A stretch of 64,000 nucleotides of DNA from the NCBI GenBank assembly GCA_032622095.1, contig CP136066.1:97795319-97859318 (forward strand). Reading direction: 5' to 3'. Of the stretch, positions 15,951 to 56,148 are shown piece after piece; position 1 is the stretch's first letter; each line of letters opens with the position of its first letter. Below the pieces are notes generated by a model. That model was not told where the DNA came from and ran no database searches. It saw only the letters and a list, made by a program, of their open reading frames with translations. The position numbers and the translations under genes are program-made. The DNA is from Siphonodentalium dalli (taxonomy: Eukaryota; Mollusca; Scaphopoda; Gadilida; Siphonodentaliidae).

Positions 15951-17063
15951 AAAGTGTCAATGACACTGTAGCTCAACTTGGATGTGGGATAATTCATAAA
16001 GAGATATATATATCAAATAAAATCCAAGATGGCTGCTGGTGGCCATGTTTTCCAATGATATTCTGTCAATGACACTGTAGCTCAACTCAGGTAGGGGAAT
16101 AATTTAATGGTTGACAGTAAATGGAGGAATTAGGAAAGGGATGTGGTCTGTCGGGTGTGCCAAAGGATTAAGTGATGCAAAGAGTAAATTCTAAAATGGC
16201 CACCGGCGGCCATGTTTTCTTGCCGAATGACCCCAAAATGACTCGTTCCCATCTACATGTCAATGTCAACATCCATGACAAATTTCACGAAGATTAAACA
16301 AACAGATCGGTCTATAACCCATGCTAATGGATTTTGTAGAAATATTTAGTCATACAAAGAGTAAAATCCAAAATGGCCATTGGTGGGCATATTTTTTTGC
16401 CGAATGACCCCAAAATGACTCGTTCCCATCAAGAGGTCACCCGATGATCCACATGAAGTTTGGTGATGATCAGATCAGGGATGTGGTATGTAGGGTGTGT
16501 CAAAGTATTTAGTGATGCAAAGAGTAAAATCCAATATGGCTGCTGGCGACCATGTTTTTTGGCCAAATGACCCAAAAATGACTCGTTCCCCCGATGATCC
16601 ATTTGAAGTTTAGTGATGATCGGATCAGGGATGTGGTCTGTAGGCTGCGTCAAAGGATTTAGTGATGCAAAGAGTAAAATCCAAGATGGCCACCAGCGAC
16701 CATGTTTTTTGGCCAATTGATCCTAAAATGACTCGTTCCCATCTGCATGAAAATGTCAACATTCATGACAAATTTTATGATGATCAGACAAACAGTACGG
16801 CCTGTAGCCCGCGCCAATGGATTTAATTTTGAAATCCAAGATGGCCACCAGTGGCCATGTTTTGTGGCCGAATGACCCCAAAATGACTCGTTCCCATCTA
16901 CATGTCAATGTCAACATTCATGACAAATTTCATAAAGATCAGACCAAAGATACGACCTGTAGCCCGCGCCAGAGGAAATTGTTGACGGACACACAACAGA
17001 CACACGCACGATGGACGCCAACCCGTGGCAATAGCTCAAACTTACAAAGTAAGTTGAGCTAAA
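15951..17063 (+). mobile_element. Family Z element, copy 1 (tandem-core, Helitron-like)
   Basis: It opens with AAAGTGTCAATGACACTGTA and then GCTCAACTTGG; a second, similar opening occurs at about 16060, so one copy may be inserted in or fused to another. The core has about five units of 150-170 bp, each with CCAAGATGGC...GCCATGTTTT and CCCCAAAATGACTCGTTCCC. It ends with ACACGCACGATGG, then the stem-loop AGCTCAAACTTAC / GTAAGTTGAGCT at 17035-17061. The 5' TAGCTCAACTT is the reverse complement of the 3' AAGTTGAGCTA, like the subterminal inverted repeats of Helentron-type elements. Confidence 0.62.
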
Positions 17064-27609: not shown

Positions 27610-28756
27610 CAGTAATGCTCTAAATAAACGACTCCTTAACCACAGTTAAAAGAGTAGGATATGTCTATTAATATGGCACACAGGGGTCATAGGCCCCTCC
27701 GATGCTGAATAAACGCTAGGGTCACGGCTTTTGAAAACTGGAGTGATATTTGCATTTTCCATTCACTTGGATAATAACTATGAAGACATGAGCAAGGGGT
27801 TCACATAGAGATAAAGCACAATATTTCAATACGCGGGGGCTAATTTTGTCTGGGCCACAAGCTTTAGATATTTTAAGATTTTTAAGAGCATTGTAAACAT
27901 CGGTTGTCGACATTTCTACCTCACTTATTGCTATATAAGAATTAGAATTTAGAGGAATATAGTTCAGGTTTATGTCATACGATGAATCATCACCTTTCGA
28001 TATTTCGCAAAAATATTCATTCAAGGAGTTCGCTTTATCAGAGTGTGAAACCATATGACAGTTGTCAGACAGAAGTGGGTGTATGGCTTTGCAATTGTTT
28101 TGGAAAAGAATTTTCTGTAAATTTTTCCACCAGGTTGATTTATCATAGTTTATATCATTTAAACTGTGGTCAATTTTTGTGTCATAATCAGACTTCGCTT
28201 TTCTCACGGCGTGTACACACTGGTTGCGCACAGTGCGAAAGTTTGCCCAAGAAGTTGAGGAATTAGTGCGTTTCGCTTTTTTATGTAGCCTATTGCGTTT
28301 GCGCATTAGTTTCTTTATGCTACATATAAGCCAAGGGGGGACATCCTTTTTTATAGAAACAGTTTTACTTGGAATATATTTAGTGCAGACATTTTGGAAG
28401 AATTCTGTTAAATGGTTGGTAATCATAGTCAAATTATGATCAGAATGACTGCTTCTAAAATCCCAATTGAGGAAGGTAGTATTCATGGCTTCATAATCCG
28501 CTTTGTCGTAATACCAGATATGTCTTTTTGTCGACGATTGATTCGATAAGGGTAGCTCGATGTTGAGCGTAACTGGTGAATGGTACCAAACGCGGTCCCC
28601 ATGATTCAGTTGGAAATATGGCTTGTTGCCATTCATCGGAAAGCTCTCGGGGAGAGCTTTCCGATGAATGGCAACAAGCCATATTTCTGACTTAATCCTG
28701 AAAAATTACCCATAATTCTGCAGTGGTTAATGAGTCGATTATTTAGGGCATTACTG
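27610..28756. mobile_element. pogo-type foldback MITE split by a LINE fragment
   Basis: The left end CAGTAATGCTCTAAATAAAC (27610-27645) and the right part (about 28602-28756, ending GGGCATTACTG with TA after it) belong to the same MITE family as 22961-23134. The central palindrome is intact at 28630-28680. Between them, about 956 bp of LINE sequence stands where about 23 bases of MITE would be expected. Confidence 0.6.
27722..28604 (-). pseudogene. Non-LTR retrotransposon (LINE) ORF2 fragment, CR1/Jockey-like
   Basis: About 290 residues of LINE ORF2 from the linker after the endonuclease into the start of reverse transcriptase. The markers are DVPPWLICSIKKLMRKRNRL, FRTVRNQCVHAVRKAKSDY, STWWKNLQKILF, the KANSLNEYFCEI block, and the RT entry motif LKISKACGPDKISPRVLKY. 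The frame opens in MITE sequence: the first dozen codons (28636-28604) are not LINE. After the RT entry block the frame shifts, since WKNANITPVFK continues in another frame near 27730. Neither the endonuclease nor the RT catalytic YADD box is present, so it is a dead internal fragment. Confidence 0.8.
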
Positions 28757-29130
28757 TAAATATCTGCGAAGTTTCAAAAAAATTGACTGTAAAATGAAGA
28801 AATACAAGCTGGGACAAAGTTGCATCCAAACACAAACTTTTATTGGAATAAATTTCAAATGACTGGGAATATCACCATTTAGTGATACAATAAAACACAA
28901 ATAAAATTGAAGTCAATGGCTAAATACAAATTTATAAAAAAGCAATAAAAAAATAATAAGAAAATAAAACATAACAAAATCAAGAGCCAGTACCCACTCC
29001 CTGTGGATATATTGTTTAATTCTAATAAATCATAGTATGAAATGAAACACGCCAGATTCTCTTTTGTGAAATAGTTCATAATATAGAGTTTCTTCCCTTA
29101 CACTGATATAATTAAATATTCACTATATAT
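28757..29130. other. Intron sequence, nothing recognised
   Basis: AT-rich, with one A-rich patch at about 28930-28980. No gene or strong repeat was seen. Confidence 0.4.
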
Positions 29131-29288
29131 ACACAGAACGACACGATGTGTAAATGGGTTTGTTGATACGGCACGAGTGCTGTCGTGGAAGGATAGAACG
29201 AGAGGCGATTGCGACTCGAGTTCTATCCTTACGCGACAGCAAGAGTGCCGTATCGACAAACCCATTTACACATCGTGTCGTTCTGTGT
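29131..29288. mobile_element. 158-bp near-perfect palindrome (foldback MITE)
   Basis: ACACAGAACGACACGATGTG on the left is matched by its exact complement at the right end. Over roughly 70-base arms only about four to six positions differ, and the loop is GAGGCGATTGCGACTC. No coding sequence. Confidence 0.85.
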
Positions 29289-29540
29289 TTATTACACGCT
29301 TCACGTCCTAGAATCCGTGCATTAAAAATACAGGACTAGAAGGTTCATTTAGGCACATGCAGGGCGTGTTTGTCATGTGTGATGATTCTTTAATTAAATA
29401 GTTCCAGTTTCATGGTTGAGGCGAACGTCATGTACGTCATATTACGTCAACGAGATCCGTATGGAACGTACATTCCATACGGATTTGTAAATATGGAACA
29501 GCAATAACACTGTACTTCTAGGAACAAGCGTGTAATAAAC
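29289..29540. mobile_element. Small inverted-repeat element with inner hairpin
   Basis: GTTTATTACACGCTT (about 29286) faces AAGCGTGTAATAAAC (about 29524). Inside lies the hairpin ATCCGTATGGAACGTACATTCCATACGGAT at about 29453-29483. It shares its left boundary with the palindrome before it. Confidence 0.5.
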
Positions 29541-29654
29541 TCCAGATACCAACCGACTTGAGCTGGCATAAAACCTATTTTTTGTTTCAAGAAAATTAGG
29601 ATTAAAACAGTGTCAAACTAAAAATCGCATTATTTGATAATAAAGATTCCCAAT

Positions 29655-29700
29655 TCATAACCCTTTCATGGCTGGTGCTTCCTGAATTTTTGTGCAAACC
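29655..29700 (+). mobile_element. Left-end fragment of TTAA-type MITE
   Basis: AACCCTTTCATGGCTGGTGC and TTCCTGAATTTTTGTGC match the left end of the MITEs at 33071, 42591 and 55222. The fragment then runs straight into a minisatellite. Confidence 0.55.
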
Positions 29701-30240
29701 CTGTTGGGCTTGGATTGAAGGGCTTGGTTGGGCTTGGATTGTTGGGCTTGGATAGATGGGCTGGGTTGGGCTTGGGTCATTGGGCTGGCTTGGATCATTG
29801 GGCTGGGCTGAGCTTGGATCATTGGGCTGGGCTTGGTTCGATGGGCTGATCTGAGCTTGGATCGTTGGGCTGAGCTTGGATTGTTGGGCTGGGCTAAGCT
29901 TGGATCATTGGGCTGGGCTTGGATCATTGAGCTGGGCCGAGCTTGGATCATTGAGCTGGACTGGGCTTGGTTCGTTGGGCTGGGCTGGGCTTGGTTCGTT
30001 GGGCTGGGCTGGGCTTGGATCGTTGGGCTGGGCTTGGATCGTTGAGCTGGGCTGGGTTCGTTGGGCTGGGCTTGGATTGTTTGGCTTGGATTAGGCTTGG
30101 ATCGTTGGGCTGGGTTGGGTTTGGATCGTTGGGCTGGGATGGGCTTGGATTGTTGGGCTGGGTTGGGCTTGTATCATTGGGCTGGGTTGGGCTTGGATCA
30201 TTGGGCTGGGCTTGGATCGTTGGGCTGGGCTGTGGATGTG
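29701..30240. repeat. GC-rich minisatellite, TTGGGCTGGGCTTGGATCR
   Basis: About 27 units of 19-24 bp, varying by insertion of an extra GGGCT. All three plus frames and one minus frame stay open in parts and would give Trp/Gly/Leu- or Pro/Gln/Ser-rich chains. This reflects the repeat, not a gene. It directly abuts the 38-bp minisatellite. Confidence 0.9.
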
Positions 30241-30296
30241 GAGTTTATATCCCATACTACTAAACTTACCTGGATGTGGCGTTTATATCCCATACA
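30241..30296. repeat. Detached outer part of the 38-bp minisatellite
   Basis: About 1.4 units of the array at 31388-32372 (GTTTATATCCCATACTAC, AACTTACCTGGATGTGGC), cut off from the rest by the insertion at 30297-31390. Confidence 0.85.
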
Positions 30297-31390
30297 TGGT
30301 TCTTGCACCTACTTTAATATCAAATTCAAGGGTTTTCAAGTAGTGTAGGGGTAGAAATTCAAGGGTTTTCAAGGATGTATATACTCGAAAATCAAGGGTT
30401 TTCAAGGACACAGTATAGTACTTAGTATATATGTAAAAGTAGTCAATAGCAAGTATTTGTGAATACAAGATGCAATCAGAATTTTAGGAGTAGAGAAAAA
30501 CAGCAATACTACATACTGTATAATATTAGCAGTATTAAAACAATATTTTGTTTGTTTCTCTTGGGTTAGGAATATGTAACTATCTCTTTCAATTTATTAA
30601 TTAATTTATTAATCAAATATGCTCACTGCCAAAGGTTGAAGTGGAACTCCATCTGGCTACATCATAACTATGTTTGTTCAGTAAAGTTATTTGATTTGAA
30701 TGTTTTCATAGGGTCTAAACTAGTGATATGCTCAACATATATTCCCTGGCTCACTAATTTTGGAATGACTGAGGCAGAGAAGACCATTTCTCAGGACATT
30801 AGTTTTATGAAAGATAATGTAACCTGTGTTGAAAAAAGGTTGTCGTGCTTGCATTGACAATGTCAGTGTTCGGTTGACGTCATTGGTAGCCTTCGTGTGT
30901 TTGCTGCTATTAATGTAAATGTGCGATCGTAACGCATGCTCACCCATGTTTCCAACGTTGATTTCCCTCATGCATATCTTGCATCTCGCGGCACGAACAT
31001 TTGAGGGAATCTCCTGTAACCATGCACTATAATCTGCTTGTGTTTTCCATCGAGATTGGAACCTACATTGTCCGCGTTGTTTTTTTTTTTACATTCTGAC
31101 AGACGATGCAGTCGGCCAATCAAAATCATCAGTATCGAGAGTGAAACAGGCTGCCGGACTCTCCGCCAATCACATGCGTCAGTACAAATCGCATTAGGTC
31201 GAACAGCAATTCCGGTTGCAATTTATAATTACGGATTTTCTATGCAGTAGGGGATTCCCTGACAGAACAAATTTAATTTCCCGGAATCCAATAATCACCA
31301 AATAAAGTTACTTCTCCGGGGCAGGGGCAGGGAAATTCAAGTATATATTTAGAGGCAGGGGCGCTATTCAAGTACCCGCGGGAAACCCTG
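30297..31390. mobile_element. Insertion splitting the minisatellite, possibly hAT-type
   Basis: The array breaks after CCCATAC at 30295 and resumes with CCCATAC at 31391, so these 7-8 bases look like a target-site duplication. The right end reads GGGAAACCCTG, matching the CAGGGTTTCCC end common in hAT elements. The left end is not a clear match. Inside is the microrepeat ATTCAAGGGTTTTCAAG, about three times at 30320-30410. No transposase frame is present. Confidence 0.5.
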
Positions 31391-32372
31391 CCCATACTAC
31401 TAGTCATACCTGAATGTGGTGTTTATATCCCATACTACTGAACATACCTGGATGTGGCGTTTATATCCCATCCTACTGAACATACCTGAATGTGGCGTTT
31501 ATATCCCATACTACTGAACATACCTGAATGTGGTGTTTATATCCCATACTACTGAACATACCTGAATGTGGCGATTATATCCCATACTACTGAACATACA
31601 TGGATGTGGCATTTATATCCCATACTACTGAACATACCTGGATGTGGCGTTTATATCCTATACTACTGAACATACCTGGATGTGGCGTTTATATCCCATA
31701 CTACTGAACATACCTGGATGTGGCGATTATATCCCATACTACTGAACATACATGGATGTGGCGTTTATATCCTATACTACTGAACATACCTGGATGTGGC
31801 GTTTATATCCTATACTACTGAACATACCTGAATGTGGCGATTATATCCCATACTACTGAACATACCTGGATGTGGCGTTTATATCCTATACTACTGAACA
31901 TACCTGGATGTGGCGTTTATATCCCATACTACTGAACATACCTGGATGTGGCGATTATATCCCATACTACTGAACATACATGGATGTGGCATTTATATCC
32001 CATACTACTGAACATACCTGGATGTGGCGTTTATATCCCATACTACTGAACATACCTGGATGTGGCGATTATATCCCATACTACTGAACATACATGGATG
32101 TGGCATTTATATCCCATACTACTGAACATACCTGGATGTGGCGTTTATATCCCATACTACTGAACATACCTGGATGTGGCGTTTATATCCTATACTACTG
32201 AACATACCTGAATGTGGCATTTATATCCCATACTACTGAACTTACCTGGATGTGGCGTTTATATCCCATACTACTGAACTTACCTGGATGTGGCGTTTAT
32301 ATCCCATACTACTAAACATACCTGGATGTGGCGTTTATATCCCATACTACTAAACATACCTGGATGTGGCGC
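31388..32372 (-). repeat. 38-bp minisatellite derived from a TRAF exon/intron junction
   Basis: About 26 tandem units. Read on the gene's strand each is CGCCACATCCAG then GTATGTTCAGTAGTATGGG and ATATAAA. The first 12 bases are the last four codons (Arg-His-Ile-Gln) of TRAF exon 6 and the rest is the start of its intron. Most units therefore carry CAG|GTATGT. Units at 32245-32240 and 32283-32278 carry CAG|GTAAGT, the full donor consensus. A subset reads CCATGTATGT and has lost the AG|GT site; this subset follows units with GCGATTATAT, which points to a higher-order repeat. Confidence 0.9.
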
Positions 32373-32479
32373 TTATTCTCCAAGCTTTGTAATTCAAGTT
32401 GACTTGTATAAACAGTGACCATTTCTAAGTGTGCTTCTTGATTCTCATCTACGTGCTTCTTCACCTCTGCACTACTCCC
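32360..32479 (-). CDS. TRAF-like gene, exon 6: end of last zinc finger and helix
   Basis: The exon has 40 codons in phase 0, after the acceptor CAACTGTTCCAG and before the donor GTATGT. It encodes GSSAEVKKHVDENQEAHLEM and then a helix (VTVYTSQLELQSLENKRHIQ), residues 234-273. The HVDENQEAH stretch gives the histidines that close the fifth TRAF zinc finger begun in exon 5, matching the usual H-x(n)-HL ending in TRAF3 and TRAF4. The last four codons and the donor are the seed of the minisatellite that fills the next kilobase of intron. Use of any donor further into the array would bring in an in-frame TAG 16 codons after the normal exon end. Confidence 0.88.
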
Positions 32480-32607
32480 CTGGAACAGTTGAAACAGAAA
32501 TTCAGAAGTCTCGTTTTAACTTTACAACAAAAGTATGTTCCCCACCCCAAAACATTTCTGGTTTTTCTCTCCAATTATATGGGTTCCATTGTTATGAAAT
32601 TTTCAAA

Positions 32608-32766
32608 CAGTAATACCCTAAATAATCGACTTAATAGCAGAATTATGGGTAATTTTTCAGGATTTAGTCGAAATATGGCTAATATAAGCCATATTTCCGA
32701 CTAAATCCTGAAAAATTACCAATAATTCTGCTGTGGTTAAGGAGTAGATTATTTAGGGCATTACTG
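32608..32766. mobile_element. pogo-type foldback MITE, short form
   Basis: CAGTAATACCCTAAATAATC on the left, GGGCATTACTG plus TA on the right. The palindrome centre is GGCTAATATAAGCC, lacking the CGGAAAGCTCTC part found in longer copies. It sits 128 bases upstream of exon 6 in gene orientation. Confidence 0.75.
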
Positions 32767-32854
32767 TAGGTACATATTTTCTATCAGTAACCTAATCCAC
32801 CCTGTGAATAATGGTTATGTGGGTAATGTTGCACATGAATAAGCACCAATTTAA

Positions 32855-33066
32855 CCTTTTCGAAATTAAATACTCATTGATGAGTAGTTCTCTTGGGAAA
32901 TGTTCAGATAATAAAGTCAATATACGACCATATGTTGTTCGTCAAACTTATTATCTGAACATTTCCCAATATGAATCACTCTGCTCTTGTATTATCTGTA
33001 AATAATAAACCATTCCAATGTAGACTTTTCTAACATGGTGGGAGAATCCATTTATTATAGAAAGGG
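32855..33066. mobile_element. TTAA-flanked MITE (AAATACTCATTGATGAG family)
   Basis: TTAA at 32851-32854 and at 33067-33070. Ends CCTTTTCGAAATTAAATACT and TATTATAGAAAGGG. Inner arms GGGAAATGTTCAGATAATAA and TTATCTGAACATTTCCC form a hairpin. CCYTT ends with TTAA duplication are typical of piggyBac-type MITEs. Relatives lie at 39897, 48985, 50575, 50980 and 61735. Confidence 0.7.
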
Positions 33067-33070
33067 TTAA

Positions 33071-33311
33071 CCCTTCCATGACTGGAGCTTCCTGAAAACC
33101 CTGTGCCAACGCATTATCTTATATATGTGAGTCTCCATTAGGGAGCCTAGCATATTTAAGAGAATACATTGGCCTAATTATTTACCTTGACCTTGTAAGC
33201 CAGTGCATTCTCTTATATATGAGGCTCCCTATGGGAGACTCGCATATATAAGAGAATTCAATGGCACAGGATTTTTAATGCTGCACCAGCACAGCTCCAA
33301 TCATGAAAGGG
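33071..33311. mobile_element. TTAA-flanked MITE (GCATTCTCTTATATATG family)
   Basis: TTAA at 33067-33070, shared with the previous MITE, and at 33312-33315. Ends CCCTTCCATGACTGGAGCTT and AGCTCCAATCATGAAAGGG are inverted repeats. Inside is a pair of hairpins with TCTTATATATGTGAGTC and GACTCGCATATATAAGAGAA. Confidence 0.75.
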
Positions 33312-33402
33312 TTAAGGAAGTGAGCCTCACCAAACAAGCCACTCATTGGACTGTGACCAATTATGAACATAGGGACTCCTGGTGAACACACTCTTATTGT
33401 TA

Positions 33403-33487
33403 CAGTAATGCCCTAAATAATCGACTTCTTAACCACAGCATAATTTTGGGCAATTTTTCAGGATTTAGTTGGAAATATGGCTTGTTA
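33403..33487. mobile_element. Left half of pogo-type foldback MITE
   Basis: TA then CAGTAATGCCCTAAATAATC through GGAAATATGGCTTGTT. The right arm is absent. Confidence 0.65.
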
Positions 33488-33796
33488 ATTCAATATTGGA
33501 TCCATAGCTCCACCTTGTTTTTTCTTGGAACTCAGTTGTATCAGGAATACTTGTGGCATATTCTATTGCCAAATCGACCAAGATAAGGAATATAATATAC
33601 CGTTATATAAGACACATAATCATCAAACTCTAGACCAATTTGTTATTTACAACACTTCTGCCAACGAGTCATTGGCATCTCACTGTGAGTCACACAGTGA
33701 CGTAACATGATTTGTCAGCCATAGATGACACATTTAGCTTTTTATCATCTGACCCCAATACCGTATGATATAAAAAAAATCCATAAACCGCAAAAT

Positions 33797-34757: not shown

Positions 34758-34832
34758 CTCAAAACCACATCCCATTTTTTGGTATTGACACACAGAAGGT
34801 TTCCTAGGACACACCTGAAGATGCTGAGGCAA
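34758..34832 (-). CDS. TRAF-like gene, exon 5: zinc finger 4 to 5
   Basis: A 25-codon exon in phase 0 between the acceptor TTTCATTCCAG and the donor GTAATT. It encodes LPQHLQVCPRKPSVCQYQKM and GCGFE, residues 209-233. His212 and Cys216 complete the fourth zinc finger, and Cys223 and Cys230 (C-x6-C, with the GC pair typical of TRAF fingers) open the fifth. It is too short to stand out as an open frame and was placed by its splice sites and by continuity with exons 4 and 6. Confidence 0.88.
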
Positions 34833-35762: not shown

Positions 35763-38112
35763 AAAAGATGAAAGTGTCAATGACACTGTAGCTCAACTTA
35801 GGTAGGGGAATAATTCAAAAAATAAACGAGACTTACCTTGGGAAGGTGAAGTTCATTTGGAATTATGTGAGTTAGACAGGAACAGAGAGCTTAAATCAGG
35901 GAGTGCTATGCGCATGTGCCGACCCGGTACGAGTCATTATGTGAAAGCAATTTTTTCTCCAGTGTTGCTACAAAGCTTACTAAAAAGAATTTTGCTATGC
36001 AAACAACTTATTATTCTATGGATATGATACTTCCAACCACAAGTAGTTATATGTATACATATTAAAGAGACTGTCTAACGAAAGAAAGCAGGGTTGGGAG
36101 GGCGGGATTTAAGCTCTCTGTTCCTGTCTAACTCACATAATTCCAAATGAACTTCACCTTCCCAAGGTAAGTCTCGTTTATTTTTTTAATTATATTTCGT
36201 TAGACAGTCTCTATCGACCTTAAATCAGGGATTCAAAGCCAATACTTGAGAAAAAATTATTCTCACCTAGAACTGAAGTACTGCCTTGTCAAAATTCGGC
36301 CCACCATGGCCAGTATTCAGCGACTTCTTGTAAAACTTTGAGAACGTCGTCACATTTGTCCAACCTGCTGTTTTCATAATCTCTGTTATGGGTACTGAAT
36401 TATTGTAGGCCTTTGAGGCAGCAGCTGATCTCACACTATGTGCAGTGAATGTATTGTCTATTCCCGATGCTGCTAGTACAATCTTTATCCATCTGGATAT
36501 TGTGTCCCTTGTAACTTTTTTGTGTGGCTTAATAAAACTAATAATTAGGGAACCCTCCCCTTCACGAATTTCTCTTGTCCGTGAGAGATACTCCTTTAGA
36601 ACGGTATATACACATAATCGCCGATCTGGCGGATAAGAACGTAATTCAATATGTCCAGGTTGATATCCTGGTCGGCTCTGCTTGAGCAATCCATCAAACA
36701 TTATGATATATTTCGAGGGCGTCCTTCGCATTCCTCGAGTAGTTAACAAATTTAAAGTTTGCACTCTTGCTGCATTGAGAAGAGCTATCATAACACAGAG
36801 CTTCAATGTCAAATCCTTCAGGGTTAGTCCTCGCACAGGTGATTTCTTTTGTAGGTGTTGTAGCACTAAGTTTACCTCCCAAGTAGTTGCAGTTGGGGTT
36901 GAAGAGTAAAATCCAAGATGGCTGCTGGCGGCCATGTTTTTTGGCCGAATGACCCCAAAATGACTCGTTCACATCTACATGTCATTATTAACATTCATGA
37001 CAAATTTTATGATGATCAGTCTAAAGGTACGACCTGAAGCCCGTGCTAAAGGATTTAGTCATACAAAGAGTAAAATCCAAGATGGCTGCTGGCGGCCATG
37101 TTTTTTGGCTGAATGACCCCAAAATGACTCGTTCCCATCTACATGTCATTATTAACATTCATGACAAATTTTATAATGATCAGACTAAAGGTACGACCTG
37201 AAGCCCGTGCTAAAGGATTTAGTCATACAAAGAGTAAAATTCAAGATGGCTGCTGGCGGCCATGTTTTTTGGCCGAATGACCCCAAAATGACTCGTTCTC
37301 ATCTACATGTCATTGTTAACATTCATGACAGATTTTATGATGATCAGACTAAAGGTACGACCTGTAGCCCGTGCTAAATAATTTAGTCATACAAAGAGTA
37401 AAATCCAAGATGGCTGCTGGCGGCCATGTTTTTTGGCCGAATGACCCCAAAATGAATCGTTCCCATCTACATGTCAATATTAACATCCATGACAAATTTC
37501 ATGATGATAAGACAAACAGTACGACCTGTGGCCCGGGCTAATGTATTAAATTTTGAAATCATAGATGGCTGCTGGTGGCCATGTTTTTTGTCGGAATGAC
37601 CCCAAAATGACTCGTTCTCATCTACATGTCATTATTAACATTCATGACAAATTTTATGATGATGAGACTAAAGGTACGACCTGAAGCCTGTGCTAAAGGA
37701 TTTAGTCATACAAAGAGTAAAATCCAAGATGGCTGCTGGTGGCCATGTTTTTCGGCCGAATGACCCCAAAATGACTCGTTCCCATCTACATGTCATTGTT
37801 AACATTCATGACAAATTTCACGACAATAAGAAGAACAGTACGGCCTGTAGCCCGTGCTAATGGATTGAATTTTGAAATCCAAGATGGCCGATGGCAGCCA
37901 TGTTTTTTTTCCGAATGACCCCAAAATGACTCGTTCCCATCTACATGTCAATGTCAACATCCATGACAAATTTCATAATAATCGGACCAAAGGTACGAAC
38001 TGTAGCCGGTGCTAAAGGAAATTGTACACACGCACGCACACACACACACACGGACGACGGATACCAAGCCATGGCAATAGCTCAAACTTTACAAAGTAAA
38101 GTTGAGCTAAAA
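35763..38112 (+). mobile_element. Family Z element, copy 2, interrupted by a retroelement fossil
   Basis: It starts AAAGTGTCAATGACACTGTA at about 35771 with GCTCAACTTAGGTAGGGG. The fossil at 35819-36903 interrupts it, then seven core units of 155-170 bp follow (36903-38010). The end is ACACACACGGACGACGG and the stem-loop AGCTCAAACTTTAC / GTAAAGTTGAGCT at 38083-38109. Units carry AAGATGGCTGCTGGCGGCCA. Confidence 0.65.
35819..36903 (-). mobile_element. Tyrosine-recombinase retroelement fossil (DIRS-like), partial
   Basis: A minus-strand segment (about 36900-36267) encodes a tyrosine recombinase of the kind carried by DIRS-type retroelements, with blocks such as LTLKLCVMIALLNAARVQTL, TAHSVRSAAASKAY, TAGWTNVTTFSKFY and SRWIKIVLAASGI. 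Cryptons carry related enzymes and are the alternative. At its 3' side two 77-bp arms (35821-35897 and 36106-36182) form an exact inverted repeat, and a second, smaller inverted pair (GACTGTCTAACGAAA) lies inside and beyond it. That fits the complex terminal repeats of the DIRS group. No reverse transcriptase or RNase H is present, so the copy is incomplete. Identical arms suggest it is fairly young. Confidence 0.65.
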
Positions 38113-42382: not shown

Positions 42383-42463
42383 CTCATGTCTTTTGAAGGG
42401 TGGTGCGCCACAAACGTAATGGCAGTTCACTGTTACCTCTGGACACACTTCCTGGAGATGTTG
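42383..42463 (-). CDS. TRAF-like gene, exon 4: zinc finger 3 to 4
   Basis: A 27-codon exon in phase 0. The acceptor is ATTTCTTCTCAG and the donor is GTAAGT, a full consensus. It encodes QHLQEVCPEVTVNCHYVCGA and PPFKRHE, residues 182-208. His183 and Cys188 complete the third zinc finger; Cys195 and Cys199 begin the fourth. The pattern H-x4-C-P-x5-C-x3-CG matches the same place in TRAF3 and TRAF4. The 81-bp length is in the range of TRAF zinc-finger exons in other animals. Confidence 0.9.
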
Positions 42464-48790: not shown

Positions 48791-48961
48791 CTGCATAAGG
48801 ATAACCGGCACAATCTCTTTGCAGCTGTCACAGATTTGTGGTCGAAATTCGCAGTCCCTCTCTGTGTGTTCTTGTTGTTTTGAAAATGGAATGAGCAGAT
48901 TGCAGCCTAGACTTTTATGTGGACACACAACTGGCCTCAGTTCACATAGCTTTGTGTGTTT
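48791..48961 (-). CDS. TRAF-like gene, exon 3: zinc fingers 1 to 3
   Basis: A 57-codon exon in phase 0, acceptor TATTAATACAG, donor GTAATG. It encodes KHTKLCELRPVVCPHKSLGC, NLLIPFSKQQEHTERDCEFR and PQICDSCKEIVPVILMQ, residues 125-181. His126 and Cys130 close finger 1. Cys137, Cys144, His156 and Cys161 form finger 2, with the VxCPHKxxGC signature of TRAF zinc fingers. Cys168 and Cys171 open finger 3. The next exon boundary falls inside finger 3, as in other TRAF genes. This is the clearest single TRAF exon in the window. Confidence 0.95.
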
Positions 48962-49641: not shown

Positions 49642-49746
49642 ATCAAGATCCTTCCATTTTGGTGTCTGTTGGCAGCCGAATTGCTTGAAAGGGCAGAAGA
49701 CAGGAAGTAAGCGAATTTCTCTTCTGGCACTGGAGTCTCGATTTAT
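49642..49746 (-). CDS. TRAF-like gene, exon 2: RING end and zinc finger 1
   Basis: A 35-codon exon in phase 0, with acceptor CTAAATTCCACAG and donor GTATGT. It encodes INRDSSARREIRLLPVFCPF and KQFGCQQTPKWKDLD, residues 90-124. The xDxSARREI segment is the conserved link between RING and first zinc finger (compare DNCCKREI in TRAF3). Cys107 and Cys114 start finger 1 (CPFxxxGC). It was placed by splice sites and homology, and it joins exons 1 and 3 without a frame break. Confidence 0.92.
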
Positions 49747-51311: not shown

Positions 51312-53386
51312 TGAAAGTGTCAATGACACTGTAGCTCAACTTGGAAAGGAAATAATTTAATGTGTTACTGTCAATGGAGTGATTAGGAATGTGGAAAGTT
51401 GAATGTCTAATTTACTGGTTTATCAACATGAAGAGATATATATATACATGTATATAAAAGTAAAATCTAAGATGGTTGCTGGCGGCTATGTTTTCCAACA
51501 ATTCAAAAACATTTGATAGCTTTAGTCATGCAAAGAGTAGAATCCAAGATGGCTGCTGGCAGCCATGTTTTAATGCCGAATAACACCAAAATTACTCATC
51601 TACATCTACATGTCAAAAGTCAAGACAAATTTCATAATAATCTGACCAAAGGTACGACCTGTAGCCCATGCTAAAGGATTTAGTCATGCAAAGAGTAAAA
51701 TCCAAGATGGCTGCTGGTGGCCATGTTTTTTGGCCGAATGACCCCAAAATTACTTGTTCCCATCTACATGTCAATATTAACATCCATGACAAATTGTATG
51801 ATGATCAGATGAACAGTACGACCTGTAGCCCGTGCTAATGGATTGAATTTTGAAATCCAAGATGGCCACTGGCGGCCATGTTTTTTGTCCGAATGACCCC
51901 AAAATGACTCGTTCCCATCTATATTCCAATTTCAACAGCCATGACAAATATTTTGATGATCAGACTAAAGGTACGACCTGTAGCCTAGCTGTGCTAAAGG
52001 ATTTAGTCATACAAAGAGTAAAATCCAAGATGGCTGCTAGCGGCCATGTTTTTTGGCCGAATGACCCCAAAATTACTCGTTCCCATTTAGATGTCATTGT
52101 TAACATCCATGACAAATTTCATGATGATCTGACGAACAGTACGACCTGTAGCCCGTGCTAATGGATTAAATTTTGAAATCAAAGATGGCCGCTGGTGGCC
52201 ATGTTTTTCGTCCGAATGACTCCAAAATGACTCGTTCCCATCTACATTCCAATTTCAACAGCCATGAAAAATTTCATGATGATCAGACTCAAGGTACGAC
52301 CTGTAGTCCGTGCTAAAGGATTTAGTCATACAAAGAGTAAAATCCAAGATGGCTGCTGGTGGCCATGTTTTTTGGCCGAATGACCCCAAAATGACTCGTT
52401 CCCATCTACATGTCATTATTAACATTCATGACAAATTTTATGATGATCAGAATAAAGGTACGACCTGTACATAGCCCGTGCTAAAGAATTTAGTCATACA
52501 AAGAGTAAAATCCAAGATGGCCGCTGGCGGCCATGTTTTTTGGCCAAATGACCCCAAAATTACTCGTTCCCATCTACATGTCAAAATTAACATCCATGAC
52601 AAATTTCATGATGATCAGGCGAAGAGTACGACCTGTGGCCCGTGCTAATGGATTAAATTTTGACATCAGAGATGGCCGCTGAGGCGCTGACGGCCATGTT
52701 TTTTGTCCTAATGACCCCAAAATGACTCGTTCCCATCTACATTCCAATTTCAACAGCCATGACAAATTTCATGATGATCAGACTAAAGGTACGACCTGTA
52801 GCCCATGCTAAAGGATTTAGTCATACAAAGAGTAAAATCCAAGATGGCTGCTGGTGGTCATATTTTTTGGCCGAATGACCCAAAAATGACTCGTTCCCAT
52901 CTACATGTCATTGTTAACATCCATGACAAATTTTATGATGATCCGACCAAAGGTACGACCTTTTTAGTCATGCAAAGAGTAAAATCTAAGATGGCTGCCA
53001 GCGGCCATGTTTTTTGGCCGAATGACCCCAAAATTACTCGTTCCCATCTACATGTCAATATTAACAACCATGACAAATTTCATGACAATAAGACGAACAG
53101 TACGGCCTGTAGCCCGTGCTAATGGATTGAATTCTGAAATCCAAGATGGCCGCTGGCGGCCATGTTTTTTTCCAATTGACCCCAAAATGACTCGTTTCCC
53201 ATCTACATGTCAATGTCAACATCCATGACAAATTTCATAATAATCAGACCAAAGGTACGAACTGTAGCCCGTGCTAAAGGAAATTGTTGACGAATCATGC
53301 ACACAAGCACACACACACGCACGACGGGCACGACGGATACCAAGCCATGGCAATAGCTCAAACTTTACAAAGTAAAGTTGAGCTAA
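51312..53386 (+). mobile_element. Family Z element, copy 3 (longest, about 12 core units)
   Basis: It starts GAAAGTGTCAATGACACTGT and GCTCAACTTGG. Core units occur at about 51465, 51541, 51699, 51857, 52021, 52177, 52337, 52509, 52661, 52836, 52982 and 53141. It ends with CACACGCACGACGGGCACGA and the stem-loop AGCTCAAACTTTAC / GTAAAGTTGAGCT at 53355-53384. Two alternating unit types are visible, one after AAAGAGTAAAATCC and one after TTGAAATCC. Confidence 0.7.
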
Positions 53387-55873: not shown

Positions 55874-56148
55874 ATCATTTCTGGTTAACTCCTCGCAGTC
55901 TTCTCTGTTACCAGGGCATCTGACTGGTTCCCCGTTGGAGAATAAAACAGGAACGCATGGTTCACACAGCCTGTGTCCACACGATGTCTGTACAGCATCA
56001 CGGAGGATGTTCTTGCATAGCACGCACTGATATTTGTCTTCGACATGTACAAATTCGGGCTGACCAGAGGGAGTGAGGCTGGATGTTGTGAGACTGCTTG
56101 GATAGTTTGATGATGGAAGGCTGAAGTTCAATTGTTCCATTCCAGGTT
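55874..56148 (-). CDS. TRAF-like gene, exon 1 of coding region: RING finger
   Basis: The acceptor CTATTTTTAG precedes 56148, eight untranslated bases follow, then ATG at 56140. The coding part is 89 codons, ending at GTGAGT. A Ser/Pro/Thr-rich N-terminus of about 35 residues precedes the RING: Cys39-x2-Cys42, Cys54-x-His56-x2-Cys59-x2-Cys62, then Cys75 and Cys82. RING domains of most TRAFs act as E3 ubiquitin ligases or dimer platforms. The last pair is C-x6-C (CPGNREDC) where TRAFs usually have C-x2-C or C-x2-D; Asp81 could serve instead of Cys82. At least one untranslated exon must lie upstream of 56148. Confidence 0.93.

Follow-up and report, generated by a model that had tools for sequence, protein, structure and literature searches.

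What would the splicing machinery make of an intron that opens with a ladder of near-copies of its own 5' splice site? The 64-kb stretch of DNA analysed here (the window) raises this question in an immune-adaptor gene, presumably of an invertebrate, that has 22 near-consensus donors if the real one is counted, and the closest cases that we found (CBS, ABCA7 and IFI6) are human. Because the copies differ from one another by single known bases, the array is a natural test bed for spliceosome choice among near-identical donors. If the extra donors are used, TRAF dosage could depend on array length; if they are unused, the array shows the strength of exon definition in suppressing decoys.

The host gene

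The RING, TRAF zinc fingers and start of a coiled coil lie in order on one strand, and by these resemblances the host is a TRAF gene. Its modelled exons are as follows (a slash marks the splice junction here and below):

55874-56044, minus strand: RING exon (exon 1; start not fixed), PF21363 TRAF3_RING above cut-off
49642-49746, minus strand: zinc-finger region exon 2, modelled from TRAF queries and in-frame joining
48791-48961, minus strand: zinc-finger region exon 3, modelled; zf-TRAF E=0.00034, alone below cut-off
42383-42463, minus strand: zinc-finger region exon 4, modelled; donor GAG/GTAAGT
34758-34832, minus strand: zinc-finger region exon 5, modelled; ends GCGFE; zf-TRAF E=8e-5, alone below cut-off
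32360-32479, minus strand: coiled-coil exon 6, 120 nt, modelled phase 0/0, ends RHIQ/GTATGT, in frame with exon 5

The lengths of all six exons are divisible by three, the introns are phase 0, and the joined product runs for 241 residues with no stop. In Pfam, this joined protein matched zf-TRAF (E=5.2e-15) and RING PF00097, both above their cut-offs, while TRAF3_RING PF21363 scored 23.7 against a cut-off of 26.9 bits on the joined protein and 29.5, above the cut-off, for the RING exon alone. Against PDB, all 11 matches of the joined protein at E<=1e-4 were TRAF2, 3, 5 or 6, and the best 11 of the 60 matches listed for the RING exon were likewise TRAF proteins. Human TRAF proteins compared with the minus strand placed the RING at 56.0 kb (E=1e-8), zinc fingers more weakly at 48.9, 34.8, 42.4 and 49.7 kb (E=0.002 to 0.05) and exon 6 alone at 32.4 kb (E=0.31), all among the best 45 of 188 minus-strand matches.

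Exon 6 by itself had no Pfam match, and its coiled-coil assignment is drawn solely from the alignment of exons 5 and 6 to human TRAF3 (20/73 identical; E=2e-11 for a comparison of two sequences only). This alignment spans GC.F.G through to ..IQ, with IQ at the same end. Since the six exons join in frame and exons 5 and 6 align to TRAF3, the label of TRAF exon 6 given in an earlier note on this DNA holds when numbering starts from the RING exon. TRAF2, TRAF3 and TRAF6 queries gave no TRAF-C/MATH exon in the window (to E=1 in one comparison, among the best 45 of 188 minus-strand matches in another), and these queries likewise gave no exon downstream of exon 6 in the window; the TRAF-C exon and the end of intron 6 may lie beyond window position 1.

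A minisatellite whose first unit spans the exon end

Exon 6 runs directly into the array, the main parts of which are:

31384-32371, minus strand: 38-bp minisatellite, 26 in-phase units; unit 1 spans the exon end, and unit 26 is broken by an insertion after base 31391
32278-32283, minus strand: unit 3 donor GTAAGT, 9/9 match to CAG/GTAAGT
32240-32245, minus strand: unit 4 donor GTAAGT, 9/9 match to CAG/GTAAGT

Tandem Repeats Finder (TRF) reported a period of 38 with 25.9 copies, 94% matches and a score of 1727 at 31391-32376. Unit 1 (32371-32334) consists of 12 exonic bases, CGCCACATCCAG (32371-32360), up to the modelled exon end at 32360, and 26 intronic bases starting GTATGTTTAG. The earlier note had described a unit in which the 12 terminal coding bases lead into the donor and intron bases, repeated about 26 times and mostly with CAG/GTATGT; 26 contiguous in-phase units from 32371 bear this out. 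Their donors are CAG/GTATGT in 19 of the 26, CAG/GTAAGT in two (units 3 and 4, exactly where that note had put them, at 32283-32278 and 32245-32240), CAT/GTATGT in four (units 8, 11, 17 and 21) and CAG/GTATGA in one (unit 26). As GT stands in the same donor register in 26/26 contiguous units (CAG/GT in 22, CAT/GT in four) and CAG/GTAWGT in 21/26, the pre-mRNA carries a donor ladder, and the near-equal donors at 38-base steps that had been claimed are present.

CAGGTAWGT was counted 22 times on the minus strand of the window, 21 of them in the array block (real donor included) and one in a further unit, unit 27; the plus strand of the window has none. A window search with <=3 mismatches to the unit returned 26 matches (units 1-25 and 27) and 100 shuffles returned 0, with no copy outside the array. 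The unit contains the exon's donor and the first unit overlaps the real exon end, both of which are traits of a boundary minisatellite. We regard this array, with a donor in every contiguous unit, as a clean and real TRAF-gene example of a kind already known.

Two alternative readings concern the copy number and the origin of the array. Tandem arrays are prone to mis-assembly, and the copy number could be an artefact of assembly; against this, the unit variants are ordered, an insertion splits the array, the first unit is joined to a unique exon, and an artefact would alter the unit count rather than the existence of the array, so that we consider this reading very unlikely. Alternatively, the exon end could derive from the array, an older minisatellite having given the donor and the exon having extended into the first unit. 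Directly upstream of unit 1, a 38-base stretch agrees with the consensus at 17/38 positions, a level reached by 0.95% of minus-strand 38-mers in the window, and is possibly a decayed earlier unit. However, 7/11 of the last aligned bases before unit 1 match, so the match is largely one short stretch, and the alignment of exons 5 and 6 to human TRAF3 extends as far as their final residues. An array that preceded the exon end seems quite unlikely to us.

Several other identities for the unit were rejected. It is not a dispersed repeat (no other copy in the window at <=3 mismatches) and not a structured RNA recognized by Rfam (no match at 29000-33500 at gathering thresholds), nor is the array coding sequence (a 38-bp period does not preserve the reading frame, and neither strand has an ORF >=60 aa across the array). 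The 38-base consensus had 0 exact matches in viral_contigs, a weak control.

An insertion and the distal end of the array

Past unit 26 the array is interrupted, resumes and meets a different repeat:

30297-31390, minus strand: 1,094-bp insertion in the array with a BED zinc-finger ORF (hAT-like); boundaries read from sequence
30233-30288, minus strand: array continuation past the insertion, with the last 7 bases of unit 26, unit 27 and 11 bases of unit 28
29702 to ~30232, minus strand: second minisatellite, G/C-rich (TGGGCTTGGATCG type), directly adjoining the 38-bp array at its distal end

Reading the minus strand, TATGGG at 31391 is followed by the start of the insertion. The flanks, AGTATGGG (31391-31398) and TGTATGGG (30289-30296), are equal at 7/8 bp, and an 8-bp target duplication is the pattern of hAT elements. 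The BED finger in the insertion (PF02892) had E=0.0039 and 17.6 bits, below the cut-off of 20.6, and its terminal inverted repeats were not significant (~20% of 1,000 shuffles were equally good). After the insertion the array restarts with TGTATGGGATATAAA, and unit 27 follows (30281-30244), reading CAG and then GTAAGTTTAG, with a donor CAG/GTAAGT at 30269. The extent given in the earlier note was therefore correct as to the 26 units and wrong in its end at 31388, since the array resumes with a unit that carries GTAAGT.

By eye, the second minisatellite looks nothing like the 38-bp unit; read along the transcript, it has CCCAG repeats that look acceptor-like, again by eye.

Consequences of using a later donor

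One stop codon would set the outcome of most extensions:

32312-32314, minus strand: TAG, 16th codon past the exon end, 46-48 bases after the exon

It had been proposed that any later donor would bring in an in-frame TAG at 16 codons. This is correct for donors 3-26, use of which would include the TAG as codon 16 (24/25 of the extra donors in units 2-26); units 3 and 4 as donors would add 76 or 114 nt with the TAG. It fails for donor 2, the nearest competitor: at +38 this donor would add VCLVVWDINATS and two bases, a frameshift with no stop inside, because the TAG lies 46-48 bases past the exon.

These outcomes bear on the length-variable poison switch put forward in the earlier note, which can be read as an array that is kept because donor use tunes TRAF output via mRNAs with a frameshift or stop. 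The stop for donors 3-26 favors such a switch, and the absence of a stop from the donor 2 extension counts against it, as does the loss of the -1 G in 4/26 units.

Donor strength and local folding

The energy computed for pairing with the 5' end of U1 was -8.3 kcal/mol for the real donor, as for its GTATGT copies, and -12.1 kcal/mol for units 3, 4 and 27, -1.9 kcal/mol for the four CAT/GT units and -7.2 kcal/mol for unit 26. The other five modelled donors of the TRAF gene range from -3.5 to -12.1; as -8.3 falls within this range, the real exon 6 donor is computed to be ordinary to good, with three decoys computed to be stronger, on an energy that leaves out exon enhancers and distance. That pairing is computed to be stronger at units 3, 4 and 27 than at the real donor is a second point in favor of a poison switch.

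GT sites reaching the U1 energy of the real donor make up 21/102 in the array versus 44/3,555 on the whole minus strand (the 21 included). Such a cluster could serve as a local U1 platform, which would block premature polyadenylation in the intron or strengthen exon 6 definition rather than supply donors. AATAAA occurs 0 times in the first kb of the intron and twice in the second, in line with this idea; yet its frequency near the array is unremarkable (78 in 64 kb; 0-3 per 1-kb bin over 11 bins) and the donor bases are not conserved, and we judge a platform to be very improbable. The suggestion that the array could soak up U1 snRNP is implausible in trans, given ~27 sites at one locus and the abundance of U1.

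Predicted local openness was 0.001 for each of donors 1 and 2, 0.040 for donor 3 and 0.081 for donor 4. Overall, 25/26 donors fell below the mean 9-mer (0.046), unit 4 being the sole one above it, and 22/26 fell below the median (0.023). Local folding gives a weak result that, if anything, would favor the decoys. The idea that array donors are unusually open in local folding was rejected, with 25/26 under mean 9-mer openness.

The junction in most units also raises recursive splicing or a nascent intron, with the AG/GT of a unit serving as both acceptor and donor, through a ratchet or through AGGT duplication. AG adjoins GT in 22/26 contiguous units, and the literature describes intron gain through AGGT segments duplicated in tandem, with repeated 24-bp segments in fission yeasts (PMC4974935). 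However, pyrimidines make up 47% of the 17 bases before the unit CAG versus 70% before exon 6 (its last 20 intron bases, CAG included). A 38-nt intron is moreover too short for animals, and this route appears extremely unlikely.

Variation among units and history of the array

Columns were compared over units 2-25 and 27 (n=25), with unit 1 excluded for its exonic part and unit 26 for its interruption. Nine of 38 columns vary, two of them within the 9-base donor (chance P(<=)=0.64) and four within the 12 exon-like columns (P(<=)=0.91), and the donor columns show no excess conservation over the rest of the unit. As the donor columns are conserved no better than the others (two of the nine variable columns), upkeep of the array as a switch is unsupported. 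The persistence of the donors probably reflects a young array.

Units 6-8 recur unchanged as units 9-11. The similarity of units at lag 3 was reached by 204 of 10,000 shuffles (lag 3 being picked as the lowest of 12 lags) and that at lag 1 by 3,683 of 10,000, and homogenisation of adjacent units was rejected on the latter count. The equality of the two triplets, together with an unusual lag 3 and an unremarkable lag 1, suggests multi-unit duplication or exchange in the history of the array. Units 1 and 2 are identical. Unit 27 shares its A with units 3-4 and its T with units 1-2, and on that basis the original donor may have read GTAAGTTTAG, a polarity that needs an outgroup. ATAA is common to the sequence before unit 1 and the unit end, which would fit an origin by microhomology.

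Known relatives

The human CBS gene has a 31-bp VNTR at exon 13/intron 13, c.1444_1467+7(16_21), with 16-21 copies and units that are always 31 bp and distinguished by substitutions (PMC2630376); it lies at the exon/intron boundary (PMC5188458, PMC1395315). Its unit coordinates amount to 24 exonic and 7 intronic bases, so each unit would carry a GT. Like the TRAF unit, the CBS unit joins an exon end to the first intron bases; unlike it, the unit is 31 bp long, has 7 rather than 26 intronic bases, lies in a human metabolic gene and is known to be polymorphic. More CBS repeats are reported with lower activity (PMC5188458, a secondary source), a point in favor of a poison switch.

The 25-bp VNTR of human ABCA7 intron 18 has ~12 to 427 units, with GT as the first two bases of the unit (PMC5954066). 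There, the donor of the next unit is used, adding 25 bp out of frame; retention of this single unit is unaffected by VNTR size, whereas exon 19 skipping changes with length (PMC5954066). Total expression falls with length, and the authors state that those transcripts do not cause the fall (PMC5954066). The array in ABCA7, like that in the TRAF gene, begins at the exon's own donor. In contrast to the TRAF unit, its unit starts at GT, which means that no exonic bases are stated to repeat, and RNA and population data exist for it. The constancy of one-unit retention speaks against a switch that counts donors by length, and with donor 2 and the unconserved donor columns it leaves us with the view that a poison switch is unlikely.

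IFI6, an interferon-induced gene, resembles the TRAF case in that a minisatellite supplies several donors. A 1995 paper by Turri et al. on this IFI6 (6-16/G1P3) minisatellite reportedly has the term 'multiple splice donor sites' in its title, and the repeat unit, which we take to be 12 nt, is shorter than that of the TRAF array. Two downstream minisatellite units act as donors in IFI6, giving three mRNAs (PMC4526556). Human segmental duplications contain internal tandem repeats at exon-intron boundaries that average 30-bp units and can alter splicing (PMC2812944); these differ from the TRAF array in having ~4 copies on average and in that their boundary cases are discussed as giving rise to novel introns, not donor ladders (PMC2812944).

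Among the matches listed in open-licence literature, none was a TRAF gene with a boundary minisatellite of this type. As far as we have seen, its occurrence in a TRAF gene is a new instance, as is its interruption by an insertion, and the kind of array is known from human genes.

Most probable explanation

We think it likely that the array is a boundary-duplication minisatellite that leaks to near donors and is neutral or slightly costly, not an evolved switch. It would have begun as a tandem duplication over the 3' boundary of the TRAF coiled-coil exon, taking in 12 coding bases, the donor and 20 intron bases. Expansion through unequal exchange or slippage would then have produced, within the intron, a minisatellite of 27 or more units, which a transposon-like insertion would later have split. 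Exon definition presumably holds most splicing at the first donor, with a minority going to the nearby units 2-4. Use of unit 2 would add 38 nt and shift the frame, and use of unit 3 or 4 would lengthen the exon by 76 or 114 nt and take in the TAG as codon 16; the extended mRNAs would mostly be lost to nonsense-mediated decay or would encode a TRAF truncated before TRAF-C. The array itself would most likely be neutral or slightly costly, with length variation expected between individuals, and any effect of length on TRAF output would more likely be indirect than a matter of counting donors. ABCA7 is the best guide to such leakage over multiple donors, as its array likewise begins at the exon's donor.

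Some observations run against this explanation: all three of the strongest donors are decoys and might be better competitors than we suppose; predicted local pairing, a weak result, leaves donors 3 and 4 more open than donors 1 and 2; and the length of the CBS 31-bp VNTR is reported to affect activity (PMC5188458, a secondary source). A bolder reading would make the ladder a heritable working rheostat, in which the three GTAAGT decoys would draw a fixed or inducible portion of splicing to units 2-4, yielding frameshifted TRAF or dominant-negative TRAF lacking TRAF-C, and array length or the order of variants would set that portion in each individual; we hold this to be decidedly unlikely.

Other features of the window

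A 327-aa ORF at 27722-28705 had nothing notable in Pfam (best E=0.13, below cut-off). A 233-aa ORF at 36267-36968 on the minus strand matches the tyrosine recombinase family PF00589 (E=8e-12), presumably part of a Crypton-, Ngaro- or DIRS-like element. Three arrays, at 16440-16971, 36902-38019 and 51521-53281, apparently belong to one satellite with periods of ~150-164 bp (AAATCCAAGATGGC...), and two of the three also have a longer period of ~320 bp or more. At 2153-2860 lies a 192-bp tandem repeat of 3.7 copies with 97% matches.
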